Origin: Mesotoga sp. Brook.08.105.5.1
Lineage (GTDB): Bacteria; Thermotogota; Thermotogae; Petrotogales; Kosmotogaceae
Direction: 5' to 3'
Length of the DNA stretch: 64,000 nt
Assembly (NCBI RefSeq): GCF_002752635.1
Contig: NZ_AYTW01000005.1
Location: forward strand, 124,001-188,000
Every line of letters begins with the position of its first letter. Position 1 is the first letter of the stretch. A program made the translations under genes and the position numbers. The notes beneath the pieces are model-generated. The model did not search any database and had not been told where the DNA came from. It was given only the letters and a program-made list of their open reading frames with translations. Of this stretch, positions 6,143-12,022 are shown piece by piece.

Positions 6143-6946
6143 ATGAATTCGAGAAAGAGCTTTGACTTCGATAAGTTAGCCACAATATACTCTCAGCACA
6201 GATATCCCAACGAGAAGTTGGTTGAGCACATTTTCAACAGAGTGCACTACGCCGACAGAATACTGGAAGTTGGATGTGGGACTGCTGATTACGTGAGCGT
6301 CCTATCAGAACTGCTCTATGCGGATGGTTTTGGATTCGATATTAGTCCATCAATGATTTCCGAGGCTGAAAAGAAGAATCGAACCGTCGATCTGAGAGTA
6401 GCTGATGCCAATAAAGCATTTCCTTACGAGGATTCTCAGTTTGATTTTGTTTTTAACATAAATCTTGTCCACTACATTTCCGATCTTGAAAACCTCTTCA
6501 TGGAGAGCTACAGAGTTATGCAAATCGATGGAAGTGTTCTCACGGTAACTGATTCATGCCAGGACATAGGAGAGAGAACTTTGACTCAGTATTTTCCTGA
6601 GACATTGGAGATAGATAGGGAAAGATATCCTGGAAACTCAGCTATAATGTCGGCTATGAAGAAGGCTGGATTCGAAGGCATCTATACTACAAAAGTGAAG
6701 ACCACCTTTGAGTTCAAGAAGCATCACTATGACCAATACAGAAGCAAGGCCTATTCAGCATTGAGATTGGTATCCGAAAGGGGTTTCAGAGAGGGAATGA
6801 AGAAACTTGAAGCGGACATGAACAAAGGACTTGTGATGGGAAGAAAGGCTTATACTCAGATTTGGGGTATCAAGGTAGCGAAGAGAGACTTCGATCTTCC
6901 AACGATATTTTCAACAAGGTTCGATGGCAGAGAAAGAAGCAGTTAA
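6143..6946 (+). CDS. Class I SAM-dependent methyltransferase
   Basis: The 267-residue protein has SAM motif I ILEVGCGTADYVSVLSE (about residues 40-56), GFGFDISPSMI as motif II, DANKAFPYEDSQFDFVF as the motif IV region and a Methyltransf_11-like core. The C-terminal third is helical and charged and may form the acceptor-binding part. The substrate is unknown. The start ATG has GAGGTGA eight bases upstream. It is only distantly similar to the other methyltransferase at 3991-4761. The 26-codon ORF and the threonine-synthase-like gene follow at once on the same strand, so they are likely co-transcribed. Confidence 0.8.
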   Translation: MNSRKSFDFDKLATIYSQHRYPNEKLVEHIFNRVHYADRILEVGCGTADYVSVLSELLYADGFGFDISPSMISEAEKKNRTVDLRVADANKAFPYEDSQFDFVFNINLVHYISDLENLFMESYRVMQIDGSVLTVTDSCQDIGERTLTQYFPETLEIDRERYPGNSAIMSAMKKAGFEGIYTTKVKTTFEFKKHHYDQYRSKAYSALRLVSERGFREGMKKLEADMNKGLVMGRKAYTQIWGIKVAKRDFDLPTIFSTRFDGRERSS

Positions 6947-6963: not shown

Positions 6964-7044
6964 GTGAGGAAGACGGCGATTAATACTCTGGTCGTAGCTG
7001 TTGGTTCATGTTTCTTTTCGTCTGCTATGAGCGGTGGAAAATGA
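6964..7044 (+). CDS. 26-codon ORF, possible leader peptide or coupling ORF
   Basis: A GTG at 6964 preceded by GGAGG (6952-6956, seven-base spacing) opens a 26-residue frame, MRKTAINTLVVAV then GSCFFSSAMSGGK. It ends at TGA 7042-7044, overlapping the ATG of the threonine-synthase-like gene as ATGA. That gene has only a weak SD of its own (GGTGG four bases before ATG), so its translation may depend on this ORF. The peptide is basic then hydrophobic, somewhat like a signal peptide. It is not rich in Thr or Ile codons, so a classical attenuation leader is not well supported. The peptide may have no function beyond coupling. Confidence 0.45.
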   Translation: MRKTAINTLVVAVGSCFFSSAMSGGK

Positions 7045-8138
7045 GTCACTTTCTCTGTTCTAAGTGTGGCCGGAGGTATCCTGCAGATACGAGGCAATTC
7101 AGGTGCTCATGCGGAGGGACATTCGATCTCGATTTTAGATCTCGGTTTCCAGTGCATGAGATTGAGAAACGCTCTCACAATATGTGGCGCTATCGTGAAG
7201 CTTTACCAATCGAGTTTGATTGCTCTATTGTCTCTATGTCTGAAGGGTGCACTGCGTTAGTCGAAGAGGTAATTGGAGGAAGAAGCGTTTTTATCAAGAA
7301 TGACACACTGTTTCCGACGGGCTCATTCAAGGATAGGGGAGCAAGTGTTCTCATAAGCTATGCGCGCGAACATTCAGTGAAATCGGTAGTCGAAGATTCG
7401 TCGGGTAATGCTGGTTGCTCAATCGCTGCTTATGCGTCCAGAGCTGGTATGCGTTGTGAGATATTCGTCCCTGATAGCACATCTCAGAGCAAGTTGAACC
7501 AGATCGCGGCCTACAATTCGAGAGTGAAGTTGGTCAAGGGATCTAGAGATGATGTGGCGAGGGAGATTCTCGAAACTGCAAGTATGGAGTTCTATGCTAG
7601 CCATGTATACAATCCATTCTTTCTTCACGGGACAAAGACATTTGCCTTCGAAGTATGCGAGCAGCTTGGTTGGAAGAGTCCAGATGCAGTAGTCGTTCCA
7701 GTGGGCAATGGGACACTTCTCCTCGGAGTGGCTATAGGATTTGACGAATTGCGTTCTGAAGGCGTAGTTAACAAAGTTCCGAAAATCATTGCGGTTCAAT
7801 CGAAGAATTGCTCTCCTCTTTTGCAAGCGTTCAATAAGAAGTCTGATCTGCCGTTGCCCCTGAAGATCGAGAAGACCATTGCTGAAGGAATCGCAATTGA
7901 AAGGCCAGTTAGGGGAGCGCAAATACTAAAGGCCGTTACCAGAAGCAATGGAACATTTATTGGTGTTGCTGAAGACGAGATTGTTGAGGCGGGAATCGAA
8001 ATGGCAGGACGTGGGTTCTTCATTGAACCAACTGCGGCAGCAACGATTGCAGGCCTTAAGAAGTATGTCACGTCCAGTAGTTCTCACGAATTGATTGTTT
8101 CAGTCTTCTCCGGTCATGGCCTGAAGACGGATCGATAA
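7041..8138 (+). CDS. thrC: Threonine synthase-like PLP enzyme
   Basis: The 365-residue protein starts with a zinc-ribbon-like segment (CSKCGRRYP and RCSCGG) common in archaeal-type threonine synthases. It continues with a fold-type II PLP domain: SFKDRG with the Schiff-base Lys (about residue 98), SSGNAGCSIAAYASRAG for the phosphate loop, and VGNGT. Threonine synthase converts O-phosphohomoserine to threonine. The start is taken as ATG 7041 because the zinc ribbon begins there; the open frame extends 11 codons upstream without an SD. hom and thrB are not nearby. Related paralogues (cysteate synthase, other PLP lyases) cannot be excluded from sequence alone. Confidence 0.78.
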   Translation: MSHFLCSKCGRRYPADTRQFRCSCGGTFDLDFRSRFPVHEIEKRSHNMWRYREALPIEFDCSIVSMSEGCTALVEEVIGGRSVFIKNDTLFPTGSFKDRGASVLISYAREHSVKSVVEDSSGNAGCSIAAYASRAGMRCEIFVPDSTSQSKLNQIAAYNSRVKLVKGSRDDVAREILETASMEFYASHVYNPFFLHGTKTFAFEVCEQLGWKSPDAVVVPVGNGTLLLGVAIGFDELRSEGVVNKVPKIIAVQSKNCSPLLQAFNKKSDLPLPLKIEKTIAEGIAIERPVRGAQILKAVTRSNGTFIGVAEDEIVEAGIEMAGRGFFIEPTAAATIAGLKKYVTSSSSHELIVSVFSGHGLKTDR

Positions 8139-8372: not shown

Positions 8373-8401
8373 TTGACCACCCGATTCACTGGTTATATAA
8401 T
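8373..8401 (+). promoter_or_regulatory. Near-consensus sigmaA promoter for the Zn-peptidase to rdgB operon
   Basis: TTGACC at 8373-8378 and TATAAT at 8396-8401 are separated by exactly 17 bp. Transcription should begin around 8407-8409, which is at the first base of the SD AAGGAGGTGG (8407-8416), giving a 5' leader of only about 15 nt before the TTG start at 8422. Confidence 0.75.
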
Positions 8402-8421
8402 TGAGTAAGGAGGTGGTTGAG

Positions 8422-9099
8422 TTGTTTTGGGATCCAACGTTCATCATACTTATTCCTGCAATCATCCTGGCAGCTTACGCCCAGTTCACCGTCAGTTCTC
8501 GCTTTTCACAGTATTCGAAGATCAAGTCGAGCTTTGGATTCAACGGCACTCAGCTTGCTAGGCAGCTATTGGACAACGCCGGTCTACATGACGTCAAGAT
8601 AGAGAGAATCAGAGGCAATCTTACCGATCACTTTGATCCAAGGAAAAAGGTGGTGCGTCTGTCTGATACTACTCACAACAGCACATCGATAGCTGCGCTG
8701 GGTGTGGTTGCGCACGAAATAGGCCATGCAATTCAGGACAAAGAAAAGTATGCACCCCTTGTTGTTCGAAATGCTGTTGTTCCTGTTGCCCAGTTAGGTT
8801 CTTCTCTTTCCTGGATAATTTTCATCATAGGTCTCCTCATGGTTTCTCAGATCCTTATAAGAATTGGGATAGTTGTATTCTCTGCGTTCGTGTTCTTTAC
8901 ACTGGTTACGTTGCCGGTGGAGTTCAACGCAAGTTCAAGAGCAAAAAAGCTGCTTTCGTCCATGGGGATGCCTTCGAATGAGCTTAAAGCCGTGAGTTCT
9001 GTTTTGGGAGCTGCTGCAATGACGTATGTGGCTTCTGCGGCCACTGCTATTCTTCAGTTGTTGAGAATGCTTATCCTATCTGGATCAGGAAGAGATTAA
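8422..9099 (+). CDS. Membrane zinc metallopeptidase, YugP-like
   Basis: The 225-residue protein has an N-terminal TM helix, a soluble segment containing AALGVVAHEIGHAIQDKEK with the HExxH zinc site, and two or three further TM helices. This is the layout of the YugP/Zn_peptidase_2 family, whose substrates are unknown. The start is taken as TTG 8422 (MFWDPTFIIL) because AAGGAGGTGG lies just upstream; the TTG at 8401 used by the longest frame is inside the promoter -10 box and cannot be transcribed from it. It is the first gene of the operon, and its stop overlaps the next start as TAATG. Confidence 0.85.
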   Translation: MFWDPTFIILIPAIILAAYAQFTVSSRFSQYSKIKSSFGFNGTQLARQLLDNAGLHDVKIERIRGNLTDHFDPRKKVVRLSDTTHNSTSIAALGVVAHEIGHAIQDKEKYAPLVVRNAVVPVAQLGSSLSWIIFIIGLLMVSQILIRIGIVVFSAFVFFTLVTLPVEFNASSRAKKLLSSMGMPSNELKAVSSVLGAAAMTYVASAATAILQLLRMLILSGSGRD

Positions 9100-10103
9100 T
9101 GCAGGGGGCACGTTCCATAGCCCTCCAGACACTATCCTTTTTTGATACTAACGGGTATATTTCTTTTAAGAAGGTGGAGATGGCACTCTCCACCCTTTCT
9201 TCGAGTGATAGGTCCTTCTGTGTGAACCTGATCTACGGAGTTCTTAGAAAGAGGATTCGAATAGACTACGAGCTCTCGCGGTTTCTGAGAAAACCCAACA
9301 AACTTCCTGTGGCGGTAAGGAACGCCTTGAGGATTGGTATATTTCAAATCATGTTTCTGGATACCGTACCTGAATATGCTGCTGTAAATTCTTCAGTGAA
9401 TTTGGTGGGAGTAAGGGAGTTCAGGGACCTTGTCAACGCAATTTTGAGAAAGATTTCCGATACCGGCTATTCGAAAAATCAGCCGCTGAATGTTTTTTAC
9501 TCCCATCCTGAGTGGCTAGTAGAATACTGGAGAGAAGTAGAATGGATAGACAATGTCGAGGAGCTTCTCGAGTACAATCAGACACCTCCGACTCAAACAG
9601 TCCTGGCTTCAGGCAAAGAGGATGAGCTGATAGAGAAGGGTTTCATCTTTGACAAGAGTGAGTATTCTGAGCTTTGCACTGTCTTTCAGAAGGGAAGCTC
9701 AATTGAGAACCTAGAGACTCTGGATGAAGTCGAGTATATACTTACAGAAGTGGGAGTTCCTGTGGCCAAGCACAGTGGCAGCCTAACCGGCAGAATCAAC
9801 GCAATGCCGTGGCTTCTTCATACGCTGACTCGCGACTCGCTTGATACTGCGTCTCATAAGGCCAAGACTCTTCTGAAGAGCTTCTCAAAAGAACATAACG
9901 ATTTCATCTACTATAGTAAGGCGATCACTAGAGAAGAAAACGATATGGCTATTGGGGTTCTCGGTGAATTCAAATCAAGCAAAATGGGCCACTTTTTCTC
10001 GGAAAGGAATATAGTTGCCAGATTCGATGGAAGAGGGTACTGGTTGCAGCCATGGAAAGCTCCCCTTGTCTGTTATGTGGCAAGACTTAGGAGGAAGAAG
10101 TGA
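9099..10103 (+). CDS. NusB/RsmB-like protein lacking the methyltransferase centre
   Basis: The 334-residue product begins with a NusB-type RNA-binding domain (about residues 1-130, e.g. AVRNALRIGIFQIMFLD and YAAVNSSVNLVG), exactly as in RsmB (16S rRNA m5C967 methyltransferase). The linker SHPEWLVEYW and EELLEYNQTPPT also match RsmB. However, the SAM-binding D-x-CAAPGGKT motif, the D-APC-SG motif and the catalytic TCS cysteine motif are all absent, and the protein is about 100 residues shorter than RsmB. The tail YWLQPWKAPLVCYVARLRR resembles the end of RsmB-like proteins. It probably binds rRNA without methylating it, or is a decaying paralogue. It sits between the Zn-peptidase and rlmN with overlapping stop/start codons on both sides. 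Confidence 0.75.
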   Translation: MQGARSIALQTLSFFDTNGYISFKKVEMALSTLSSSDRSFCVNLIYGVLRKRIRIDYELSRFLRKPNKLPVAVRNALRIGIFQIMFLDTVPEYAAVNSSVNLVGVREFRDLVNAILRKISDTGYSKNQPLNVFYSHPEWLVEYWREVEWIDNVEELLEYNQTPPTQTVLASGKEDELIEKGFIFDKSEYSELCTVFQKGSSIENLETLDEVEYILTEVGVPVAKHSGSLTGRINAMPWLLHTLTRDSLDTASHKAKTLLKSFSKEHNDFIYYSKAITREENDMAIGVLGEFKSSKMGHFFSERNIVARFDGRGYWLQPWKAPLVCYVARLRRKK

Positions 10104-11116
10104 AGGACGTACTTTCTTTTAGTTTGGACGAACTAAGAGAGGAAATGCTTTCCTTAGAAGAAGCAACATTTCGAGCAAAGCAGATCTTTGACTGGATTTA
10201 CAGGAAGAAGGCGGTGGACTATTCGGAGATGACAAATCTTCCCGTTAGTCTTCGGGAAAGACTCTTCGGGCTTCTTCCCTTTCCGGTTATGAAAATGGAG
10301 GAAAGACAGGTGGCCGATGATGGCACTGAGAAGTTCTTGTGGAAGCTGGAAGATCGCAATCACATTGAATCAGTGCTTCTGAGGCATCCAACTCATACTA
10401 CGTTCTGCATCTCTTCACAGGTTGGTTGTGCGCTGAACTGCTCCTTCTGTGCTACGGGAGCCGGAGGTTTCACTCGAGACCTGTCTGCAGGCGAAATTGT
10501 CGGCCAGGTTGTATTCATGGAAAAGATCAGTGATAAACCTGTTGACAACATAGTTTTTATGGGTATGGGAGAGCCTTTTCTGAATGAGTACAATGTATTT
10601 AAAGCGATAAGCATTCTCCACGATCCCGTAGGGAGAGACCTTGGAACGCGGCGATTCACCATATCAACATCCGGTATTCCAGAATCGATAAGGAAGTTGG
10701 CCGATTCGAAAATGGATGTTAGACTGTCAGTATCGCTTCATAGTGCAAGAGACGAACTAAGGAGTAAGTTGATGCCTGTTAACAGGAAGTACCCGTTATC
10801 AACTCTTAGAGAGGCTCTAGAATACTATCAGCACATCACCGGTAACAGGATAACCGTTGAATATGCAATGATAAAGGGAGTGAATGATTCCAAAGAAGAG
10901 GCGCAGCACCTTGTGGAATATCTACGAGGGTTGAAGTCATTCATAAACATAATTCCGGTGAATCCCGTCAATAAGATCTACGACAAACCTTCAGAAAATG
11001 TAGTAGTTTCTTTTGTTGAAACTCTAAGAAAAGCAGGGTTTGAAAGTGCCCTGAGGCATGAAAAGGGAAGTGATATCGATGCAGCTTGCGGTCAGCTCAG
11101 GCAAAGAAGGAGGTAG
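10100..11116 (+). CDS. rlmN: Dual-specificity 23S rRNA/tRNA adenine-C2 methyltransferase RlmN
   Basis: RlmN makes m2A2503 in 23S rRNA and m2A37 in some tRNAs by radical SAM chemistry. The 338-residue protein has the N-terminal RNA-binding helices, the radical SAM cluster motif CALNCSFC, GMGEPFLN, STSGIPESI and SVSLHSA, and the resolving C-terminal Cys in DIDAACGQL. All catalytic features are present. Translation starts at GTG 10100, overlapping the stop of the RsmB-like gene as GTGA with AGGAGGAAG just upstream. Its placement with rsgA and the RsmB-like gene makes a ribosome-maturation operon. Confidence 0.95.
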   Translation: MKDVLSFSLDELREEMLSLEEATFRAKQIFDWIYRKKAVDYSEMTNLPVSLRERLFGLLPFPVMKMEERQVADDGTEKFLWKLEDRNHIESVLLRHPTHTTFCISSQVGCALNCSFCATGAGGFTRDLSAGEIVGQVVFMEKISDKPVDNIVFMGMGEPFLNEYNVFKAISILHDPVGRDLGTRRFTISTSGIPESIRKLADSKMDVRLSVSLHSARDELRSKLMPVNRKYPLSTLREALEYYQHITGNRITVEYAMIKGVNDSKEEAQHLVEYLRGLKSFINIIPVNPVNKIYDKPSENVVVSFVETLRKAGFESALRHEKGSDIDAACGQLRQRRR

Positions 11117-11119
11117 GGC

Positions 11120-12022
11120 TTGGATAGAAGAAAAGGAGTAGTCGTTAGATTCGGAAGCAGAAATATGGAAGTAGTCGATAGCGAAACAGGAGGAAGACTT
11201 GTTTGCACCATGCCTGGGCGTTTTAGAATGCAGGGGATAAGACCTATTGTTGGAGATAGGGTTGAGTATACATTGAGCGGCAACGGTCAGGGTCGAATAG
11301 AAAGCATTCTTCCCAGAGAGACTGAACTATTAAGACCGCGAATCTCCAATATTGAGCAGATACTTCTTGTACTATCGTTGAAGGAACCGGCTGTTCAGAA
11401 TACGGTTACTGACCGTTTTCTAGTTCTGGCAGAGTTCGCAAAACTTCCGGTAGTAATAGTTGTAAACAAAGTCGATCTGCTGCACGGAGACGAAATAGAG
11501 AGTTTCTGTGAAATCTATGGAGAATACTACGATATCTGCCACGTCTCTTCAAAAGAGCAGATCAACATTGATAGGTTACGAGAGATTCTGAAGGGTAAGG
11601 TAAGCGTTATGGCGGGAATGTCGGGCGTTGGTAAGAGCAGTTTGCTTAACACGTTGAATCCCGGTCTAAAGTTGAGGGTGTCAGAAATATCTCGAGGTCT
11701 TGAGAGAGGGAGACACACAACATCGTATGTTGAACTGCTTCAATTCGAATTTGGAGGACTGATTGCTGACACTCCAGGTTTTGCTAATCTTGAAATGCCC
11801 GAGATAACTCCGGAAAACCTGAAGAGCTATTTCTTGGAGATTACTCAGGAAAATGAAATGTGCGCATTTTCCGATTGCAATCACATTGATGAGCCCGGTT
11901 GTTATGTCAAGGAGCTGGTCGAAGCTGGGAGTATTCATAAGAGTCGCTACAACAGTTACCTGAATATGTATAATGAACTGAAGGAAAGAGAAAGAGAGAA
12001 GGGAGGAAGAAAACATGGCTAA
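11120..12022 (+). CDS. rsgA: Ribosome small-subunit biogenesis GTPase RsgA
   Basis: RsgA is a circularly permuted GTPase that helps late 30S assembly. The 300-residue protein shows the OB domain (residues 1-65), then the permuted order G4 NKVD, G1 GMSGVGKSSLLN and G3 DTPGF. The C-terminal zinc domain is CAFSDCNHIDEPGC, which has the expected Cys-His-Cys spacing. The TTG start at 11120 follows AAGGAGG. The 3' end overlaps rpe by eight bases. Confidence 0.95.
   Translation: MDRRKGVVVRFGSRNMEVVDSETGGRLVCTMPGRFRMQGIRPIVGDRVEYTLSGNGQGRIESILPRETELLRPRISNIEQILLVLSLKEPAVQNTVTDRFLVLAEFAKLPVVIVVNKVDLLHGDEIESFCEIYGEYYDICHVSSKEQINIDRLREILKGKVSVMAGMSGVGKSSLLNTLNPGLKLRVSEISRGLERGRHTTSYVELLQFEFGGLIADTPGFANLEMPEITPENLKSYFLEITQENEMCAFSDCNHIDEPGCYVKELVEAGSIHKSRYNSYLNMYNELKEREREKGGRKHG

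Follow-up and report, generated by a model that had tools for sequence, protein, structure and literature searches.

The window, that is, the whole stretch of 64,000 nucleotides analysed, belongs to a genome of 3.0 Mb in 61 contigs and carries on its forward strand a 334-aa ORF with an ATG start and no internal stop codons, hereafter referred to as pseudo-RsmB (Table 1). As described in the earlier note, the gene is embedded between a Zn-peptidase gene and rlmN with overlapping codons. The overlaps measure one and four bases, respectively, and the ATG of the ORF begins on the final base of the Zn_peptidase_2 stop codon. The gene order downstream from pseudo-RsmB is rlmN, rsgA (the product of which has a role in 30S assembly) and rpe. 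Further upstream, and on the same strand, we found genes for a small class I methyltransferase (6143-6946; Methyltransf_11, 5.1e-18) and a PLP-dependent enzyme (7008-8138; PALP, 6.5e-70). There was no match to phage families.

Table 1. Features of the pseudo-RsmB locus, with positions in the window
Feature	Position	Strand	Evidence and remarks
Zn_peptidase_2 family gene	8401..9099	+	PF04298 1.2e-86; upstream, 1-base overlap with the ORF
pseudo-RsmB ORF	9099..10103	+	334 aa plus stop; orthologues in the family
NusB-like domain, RsmB type, aa 1-125	9099..9473	+	Pfam NusB 2.6e-22; structure match to NusB chains
RsmB N1 (ferredoxin-like) domain, ~aa 128-205	9480..9713	+	weak PF22458 trace, AF2, hhalign
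Half methyltransferase domain, aa 209-334	9723..10100	+	QDE remnant, then beta4 to C-terminus; profile match, hhalign, AF2
Deletion junction, ~aa 210-223	9726..9767	+	~73 residues with motifs I-III missing; exact breakpoint uncertain
Motif IV remnant KHSGSLTG (active RsmB: DAPCSGLG)	9768..9791	+	catalytic Cys column = G227
Motif VI remnant YYSK (active RsmB: YSTC)	9909..9920	+	Cys column = K274
rlmN	10100..11116	+	TIGR00048 379.8 bits (cut-off 290); downstream, 4-base overlap (GTGA)
rsgA	11120..12022	+	PF03193 1.3e-51; next in cluster after rlmN

The Pfam search confirmed the N-terminal NusB domain that had been recognized in the earlier note. The score of the protein against the NusB equivalog model TIGR01951 was 42.3 bits, below the 88.35 required. 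Three NCBIfam RsmB models matched the ORF with scores far below their cut-offs (146 versus 503, 112.7 versus 319 and 83.7 versus 269.05 bits), all of these matches being confined to aa 1-207, and the Pfam search detected no Methyltr_RsmB-F domain in the ORF. The RsmF/B ferredoxin family (PF22458) left a weak trace over aa 136-167, at 16 bits and thus below the required 27, and the assignment of an N1 domain is backed by the AF2 elements at residues 166-197 and by the hhalign alignment to full-length RsmBs. The ORF therefore displays the domain order of RsmB, the 16S m5C967 methyltransferase, with a NusB-like N-terminal domain followed by N1.

The earlier note described the catalytic region as kept at its start. 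The start is indeed present, but the C-terminal half is kept too and, judging from sequence comparisons, the shortness of pseudo-RsmB does not stem from a C-terminal truncation but from the absence of about 73 internal residues that would follow the 'QDE' helix and precede motif IV. In a profile-profile alignment (hhalign), pseudo-RsmB and full-length RsmBs were aligned end to end over 330 columns (probability 100, E 4.5e-47), and columns 199-332 of the short-form profile (A1) matched a full-length Thermotogota RsmB in its C-terminal half (G017; 8.0e-11). C-terminal truncation was ruled out by this homology, which three alignments placed from motif IV onward. A C-terminal HMM built from 25 full-length RsmBs did not find the Kosmotogaceae (f1) C-terminus at E 1e-3, and in a PDB profile search the pseudo-RsmB C-terminus was aligned to E. 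coli RsmB at just -3.4 bits. The QDE-type Q and the Cys of motif IV lie 92 residues apart in L036 (Q225-C317) and 91 residues apart in L043, versus 19 in the window protein as positioned by hhalign, and the loss is estimated from this difference. The breakpoint varies with the alignment: one has two separate gaps, and in the other two most of the loss follows the QDE remnant. The missing stretch corresponds to beta1 to beta3 plus motifs I-III, and pseudo-RsmB thus lacks SAM motif I (DxCAAPGGK) together with motifs II and III.

The absence of the SAM motif and of the catalytic Cys, both claimed in the earlier note, extends to the orthologues. An HMM for the SAM lobe matched none of 16 Kosmotogaceae frames, versus 36 of 36 other Thermotogota frames, in a count covering 52 frames from 53 Thermotogota loci (L001-L053), with overlapping loci and several genes represented twice. 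In a count of 79 RsmB-like frames (80 genome-contig loci), the lobe was present in 73; five of the six frames without it were on Kosmotogaceae contigs and the sixth was cut by a contig end. The motif IV Cys column is occupied by Gly in 14 of 15 Kosmotogaceae rows and by Asn in the other, with an ambiguity of one residue in L015 and L016, and the motif VI column contains Cys in none of the 15 rows. Cys is found at both columns in 29 of 30 full-length RsmB rows, the thirtieth being cut there. In L015 and L016, both from genus g2, a Cys adjoins the motif IV column (GC rather than GS) and could be aligned with it by a shift; the SAM lobe and the motif VI Cys are missing from these two sequences, and the adjoining Cys may have persisted from the ancestral motif. 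Since motifs I-III and both Cys are missing, pseudo-RsmB should not bind SAM in the manner of RsmB, nor should it form an enzyme-RNA cysteine intermediate.

The predicted structures are in agreement with an internal loss. The AF2 model obtained with 30 rows had a pLDDT of 92.2 and a pTM of 0.88, and a second model based on six short-form rows alone (pLDDT 84.4, pTM 0.78) contained nearly identical elements. The best VIA-align matches were E. coli RsmB structures for both the first (1sqf, Z 28.9, rmsd 2.6, 318 residues) and the second model (1sqg, Z 27.1, rmsd 3.2, 318 residues), and Foldseek concurred (1sqf, E 2.9e-14). The NusB domain, N1 and the Rossmann half from beta4 to the C-terminus are predicted to form one compact fold. 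In the earlier note, detection of a SAM-binding fold by structure prediction was considered to speak against the proposed loss; neither AF2 model, both being predictions, contains a complete Rossmann sheet with a SAM pocket, and strands 193-197 and 222-225 are joined by a one- or two-residue bridge alone. The NusB part of the window protein is basic (+8). The N1 part has a net acidic charge of -11 in the window protein and of -3 to -12 over 15 Kosmotogaceae rows (values for short forms alone), and RNA binding by N1 is therefore not favoured.

The short form was present in all 17 Kosmotogaceae genomes examined, with no stop codon inside any match and with identities to the window protein ranging from 73 to 31% across 16 orthologue rows. 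In two genomes (G008 and G013) the gene is apparently split over two contigs, and the corresponding loci (L011 and L020) were left out of the omega, tree, identity-ratio and column analyses. The loss is thus shared by the orthologues, as anticipated in the earlier note, and the alternative raised there of a frameshift in this strain only was sought and not found. By profile search, 17 of 103 Thermotogota genomes have the short form (all Kosmotogaceae), 46 have a long RsmB, and 40 have none recognizable, although 11 of these 40 match weakly via NusB-type stretches and one of them (G042) has a strong PF01189 match. The long frames measure 411-457 aa, except for a single 289-aa frame that lies at the edge of a contig. 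The distribution of RsmB is therefore patchy across the phylum, with 40 of 103 genomes without it by profile search.

The pseudo-RsmB gene occupies the place of rsmB. Scored by strict patterns inside short flanks, the HExGH motif of Zn_peptidase_2 type was found upstream from 14 of the 17 Kosmotogaceae loci and an RlmN-type motif downstream from 11 of 17, and of the 23 loci examined that have a full-length or cut RsmB, 9 are likewise flanked by both motifs, in families f2 and f5. Pseudo-RsmB thus has the gene neighbourhood of several full-length Thermotogota rsmB genes, which identifies it as rsmB at its own locus. In the phylogeny inferred from aa 1-165 of 45 sequences, the Kosmotogaceae proteins formed a single clade (0.990) inside the Thermotogota RsmBs (0.998). 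The synteny, the phylogeny and the common deletion point to a single ancestral loss, and the sequence data support the view that the gene is an rsmB orthologue that underwent one ancestral in-frame loss of its SAM-binding lobe. One deletion event followed by vertical inheritance would most simply account for this pattern.

The N-terminal domain has the NusB fold, confidently predicted, with NusB chains matching aa 3-126 of the AF2 model (Z up to 18.0; one of these chains comes from a NusB-NusE-boxA complex). The protein might in principle be an additional NusB-like factor, involved in transcription antitermination or targeting S10/boxA; the earlier note had suggested a NusB-like assembly factor. 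However, the sequence scores as RsmB and not as NusB, and in the aa 1-165 tree, which was built from RsmB-type sequences alone, the protein groups with the RsmBs. Unlike NusB, it also carries N1 and the half-methyltransferase, and almost two thirds of the protein would have no purpose in such a factor. Furthermore, the genome already encodes a separate NusB, and one was found in 16 of the 17 Kosmotogaceae genomes, the exception being G005 (80% complete). We therefore consider a NusB-like role to be decidedly unlikely.

Evidence for selection was obtained from five close pairs (dS < 0.6), which are not independent, as three of them fall among the same three genomes. Omega was 0.12-0.20 for the whole gene and, by part, 0.04-0.18 for NusB, 0.09-0.36 for N1 and 0.18-0.26 for the half-methyltransferase; among wider pairs, the highest value was 0.55, in the half-methyltransferase part. 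The ratio of the identity in the half-methyltransferase to that in NusB was 0.58 in Kosmotogaceae (105 pairs), versus 1.06 in f2 (36 pairs), 1.19 in f5 (15 pairs) and 0.91 in f10 (3 pairs) for full-length RsmBs. This lower ratio is what might be expected from a decaying pseudogene, and an assembly error in the window genome might likewise be envisaged. However, the presence of the gene, free of stops, in 17 of 17 genomes and an omega of 0.04-0.36 in every part among the five close pairs rule out a pseudogene or strain artefact, and we give this explanation hardly any credence. Since the C-terminal half evolves faster and omega is nevertheless low, the catalytic constraint has gone while another constraint remains. 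On these sequence grounds, pseudo-RsmB is a conserved pseudo-enzyme. Residues of the RsmB family are kept in the NusB and N1 parts (e.g. R50, D56, L77, R78, G80, N113, R117, P137 and W139), and each of K25, W238 and P322 is shared by at least 14 of 15 Kosmotogaceae rows and by none of 30 full-length rows. The latter three residues suggest an adaptation around the scar, and hence a new constraint rather than decay. E210 was dropped as a candidate new residue, since it counts as new in one alignment but coincides with the QDE-motif E in another.

Pseudo-RsmB would still be an active methyltransferase if its half-Rossmann paired with a SAM lobe supplied by another protein, which is conceivable in principle, or if it used another donor. 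The earlier note had raised the question of a full RsmB elsewhere in the genome; no RsmB/RsmF methyltransferase domain (PF01189) over cut-off was found in the 17 Kosmotogaceae genomes, and 25 of the 61 genomes searched have one. There were ten weak methyltransferase matches in seven Kosmotogaceae genomes, and the five inspected (L208-L212) resemble, as judged by eye, isoaspartate-methyltransferase, RlmD-like and TrmI-like proteins; a detached SAM lobe was rejected for these five of the ten. Both Cys columns have been lost too, so an active enzyme is highly improbable, even with the target base kept.

This base was read from one 16S gene per genome, at a position that we take to be 967 in E. 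coli numbering and that was placed via the conserved h31 flank, 7 of 30 genes having a differing flank and being read by eye. It is C in all seven Kosmotogaceae 16S genes examined, 10 of the 17 genomes having given no 16S match. C967 was found in 28 of 30 Thermotogota 16S genes, the two others, both from genus g7 of f2, which has no RsmB, having G967. In the genomes of these two g7 16S genes (L197 and L201), RsmB is missing and the base is G, as if enzyme and target had been lost together. However, genus g9 (f2) lacks RsmB and keeps C967 in all four 16S genes examined, and the retention of C967 is therefore not diagnostic. Loss of the target base was accordingly rejected as a marker of RsmB loss.

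On balance, we lean towards the view that pseudo-RsmB is a non-catalytic 16S rRNA chaperone or 30S assembly factor at h31, perhaps acting together with RsmD. The pure rRNA-binding protein of the earlier note is close to this best-supported role, its NusB-like variant being the less likely part. Pseudo-RsmB would bind the nascent 16S 3' domain around h31 (G966/C967), prevent mispairing of the h31 loop before later proteins have bound, and subsequently leave the rRNA; RsmD, which modifies the adjoining G966 and is still encoded, may act with it. We infer the RNA binding, h31 as its site and the action with RsmD.

This view draws on findings for E. coli. According to the portions of PMC13004024 considered here, RsmB and RsmD together reduce H30 probe binding in one of the folding classes of the nascent 16S 3' domain, in a SAM-independent manner, and the authors hypothesize that the H31 loop is transiently sequestered and a misfolded subclass thereby avoided. 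The two proteins were tested jointly, the effect concerned a subset of molecules, the four class shares were hardly altered, and the double-deletion mutant reportedly has a minimal growth phenotype (PMC13004024, same portions). In the part of PMC7056703 consulted, 17S rRNA builds up in delta-rsmB, and RsmB is proposed by the authors to accelerate assembly or to avert misassembly. Together with the findings for KsgA (see below), these data lead us to propose that the Kosmotogaceae protein may be an RsmB reduced to its assembly role. The rlmN and rsgA neighbours, the conservation of C967, the RsmD-type matches, the selection and the predicted fold were counted in favour of such a role. The acidic N1 part, the fast-evolving half-methyltransferase and the fact that C967 is not diagnostic were counted against it, as was dispensability: with no RsmB recognized by profile search in 40 of 103 Thermotogota genomes, the role would be dispensable in relatives.

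The co-encoded and overlapping rlmN and the RsmD-type match found in 16 of 17 Kosmotogaceae genomes would also be compatible with a non-catalytic protein that scaffolds or activates a different rRNA-modifying enzyme, such as RsmD at G966 or RlmN, and a new contact surface could be formed by newly fixed residues, W238 near the scar being one example. Eight of the 16 RsmD-type matches exceed the curated cut-off, and the remaining genome, G016 (83% complete), shows just a weak match on a longer frame. However, the neighbourhood is unspecific, since 9 of the 23 loci examined that have a full-length or cut RsmB are accompanied by the RlmN motif as well, and the RsmD-type matches are just as present in the RsmB-less genera g7-g9. 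A partner of this kind is therefore unlikely.

The assembly role could be taken further. Pseudo-RsmB may be a natural separation-of-function RsmB, with the SAM lobe and Cys excised and the scar re-adapted, leaving a pure rRNA chaperone that shields h31; we regard this as a serious possibility that stops somewhat short of being probable. If true, the selected function of RsmB can be wholly independent of methylation across one bacterial family, suggesting that the protein matters for ribosome building even without methylation. A wider question is what selection preserves in rRNA methyltransferases, the methyl group that they add or a role in rRNA folding, and a selected, family-wide RsmB without SAM lobe and Cys makes this question directly testable. 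No description of an RsmB lacking the SAM lobe was found among the papers listed by searches of open-licence PMC text, and the portion of the K. olearia transcriptome text consulted (PMC5674127) does not mention the pseudo-RsmB gene.

Among known systems, RsmB/Fmu/Sun of E. coli (1SQF/1SQG) is the closest, sharing its domain order with pseudo-RsmB and providing its best structural match, but pseudo-RsmB lacks the SAM motifs and both catalytic Cys of that enzyme. KsgA (RsmA) differs in having a catalytic site that is naturally retained and in acting at a site other than that of RsmB, and NSUN4, which is not known to have a NusB domain, is, unlike pseudo-RsmB, an active methyltransferase. By analogy, KsgA is an rRNA methyltransferase with an assembly role beyond methylation, and the part of a review considered here regards assembly as its primary role and methylation as secondary; as a point of difference, inactive KsgA (E66A) is harmful when overexpressed in a knockout (PMC9032327). 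NSUN4, which acts with MTERF4, belongs to the m5C-methyltransferase family and has a role in mitoribosome assembly besides methylation, according to the section of PMC3916286 consulted.

For annotation purposes, matches to RsmB need to be checked for motif I. In both genomes of family f7 (G042:C130 and G048:C124), the NusB-type match lies in a 433-aa frame, which is longer than the other NusB frames.
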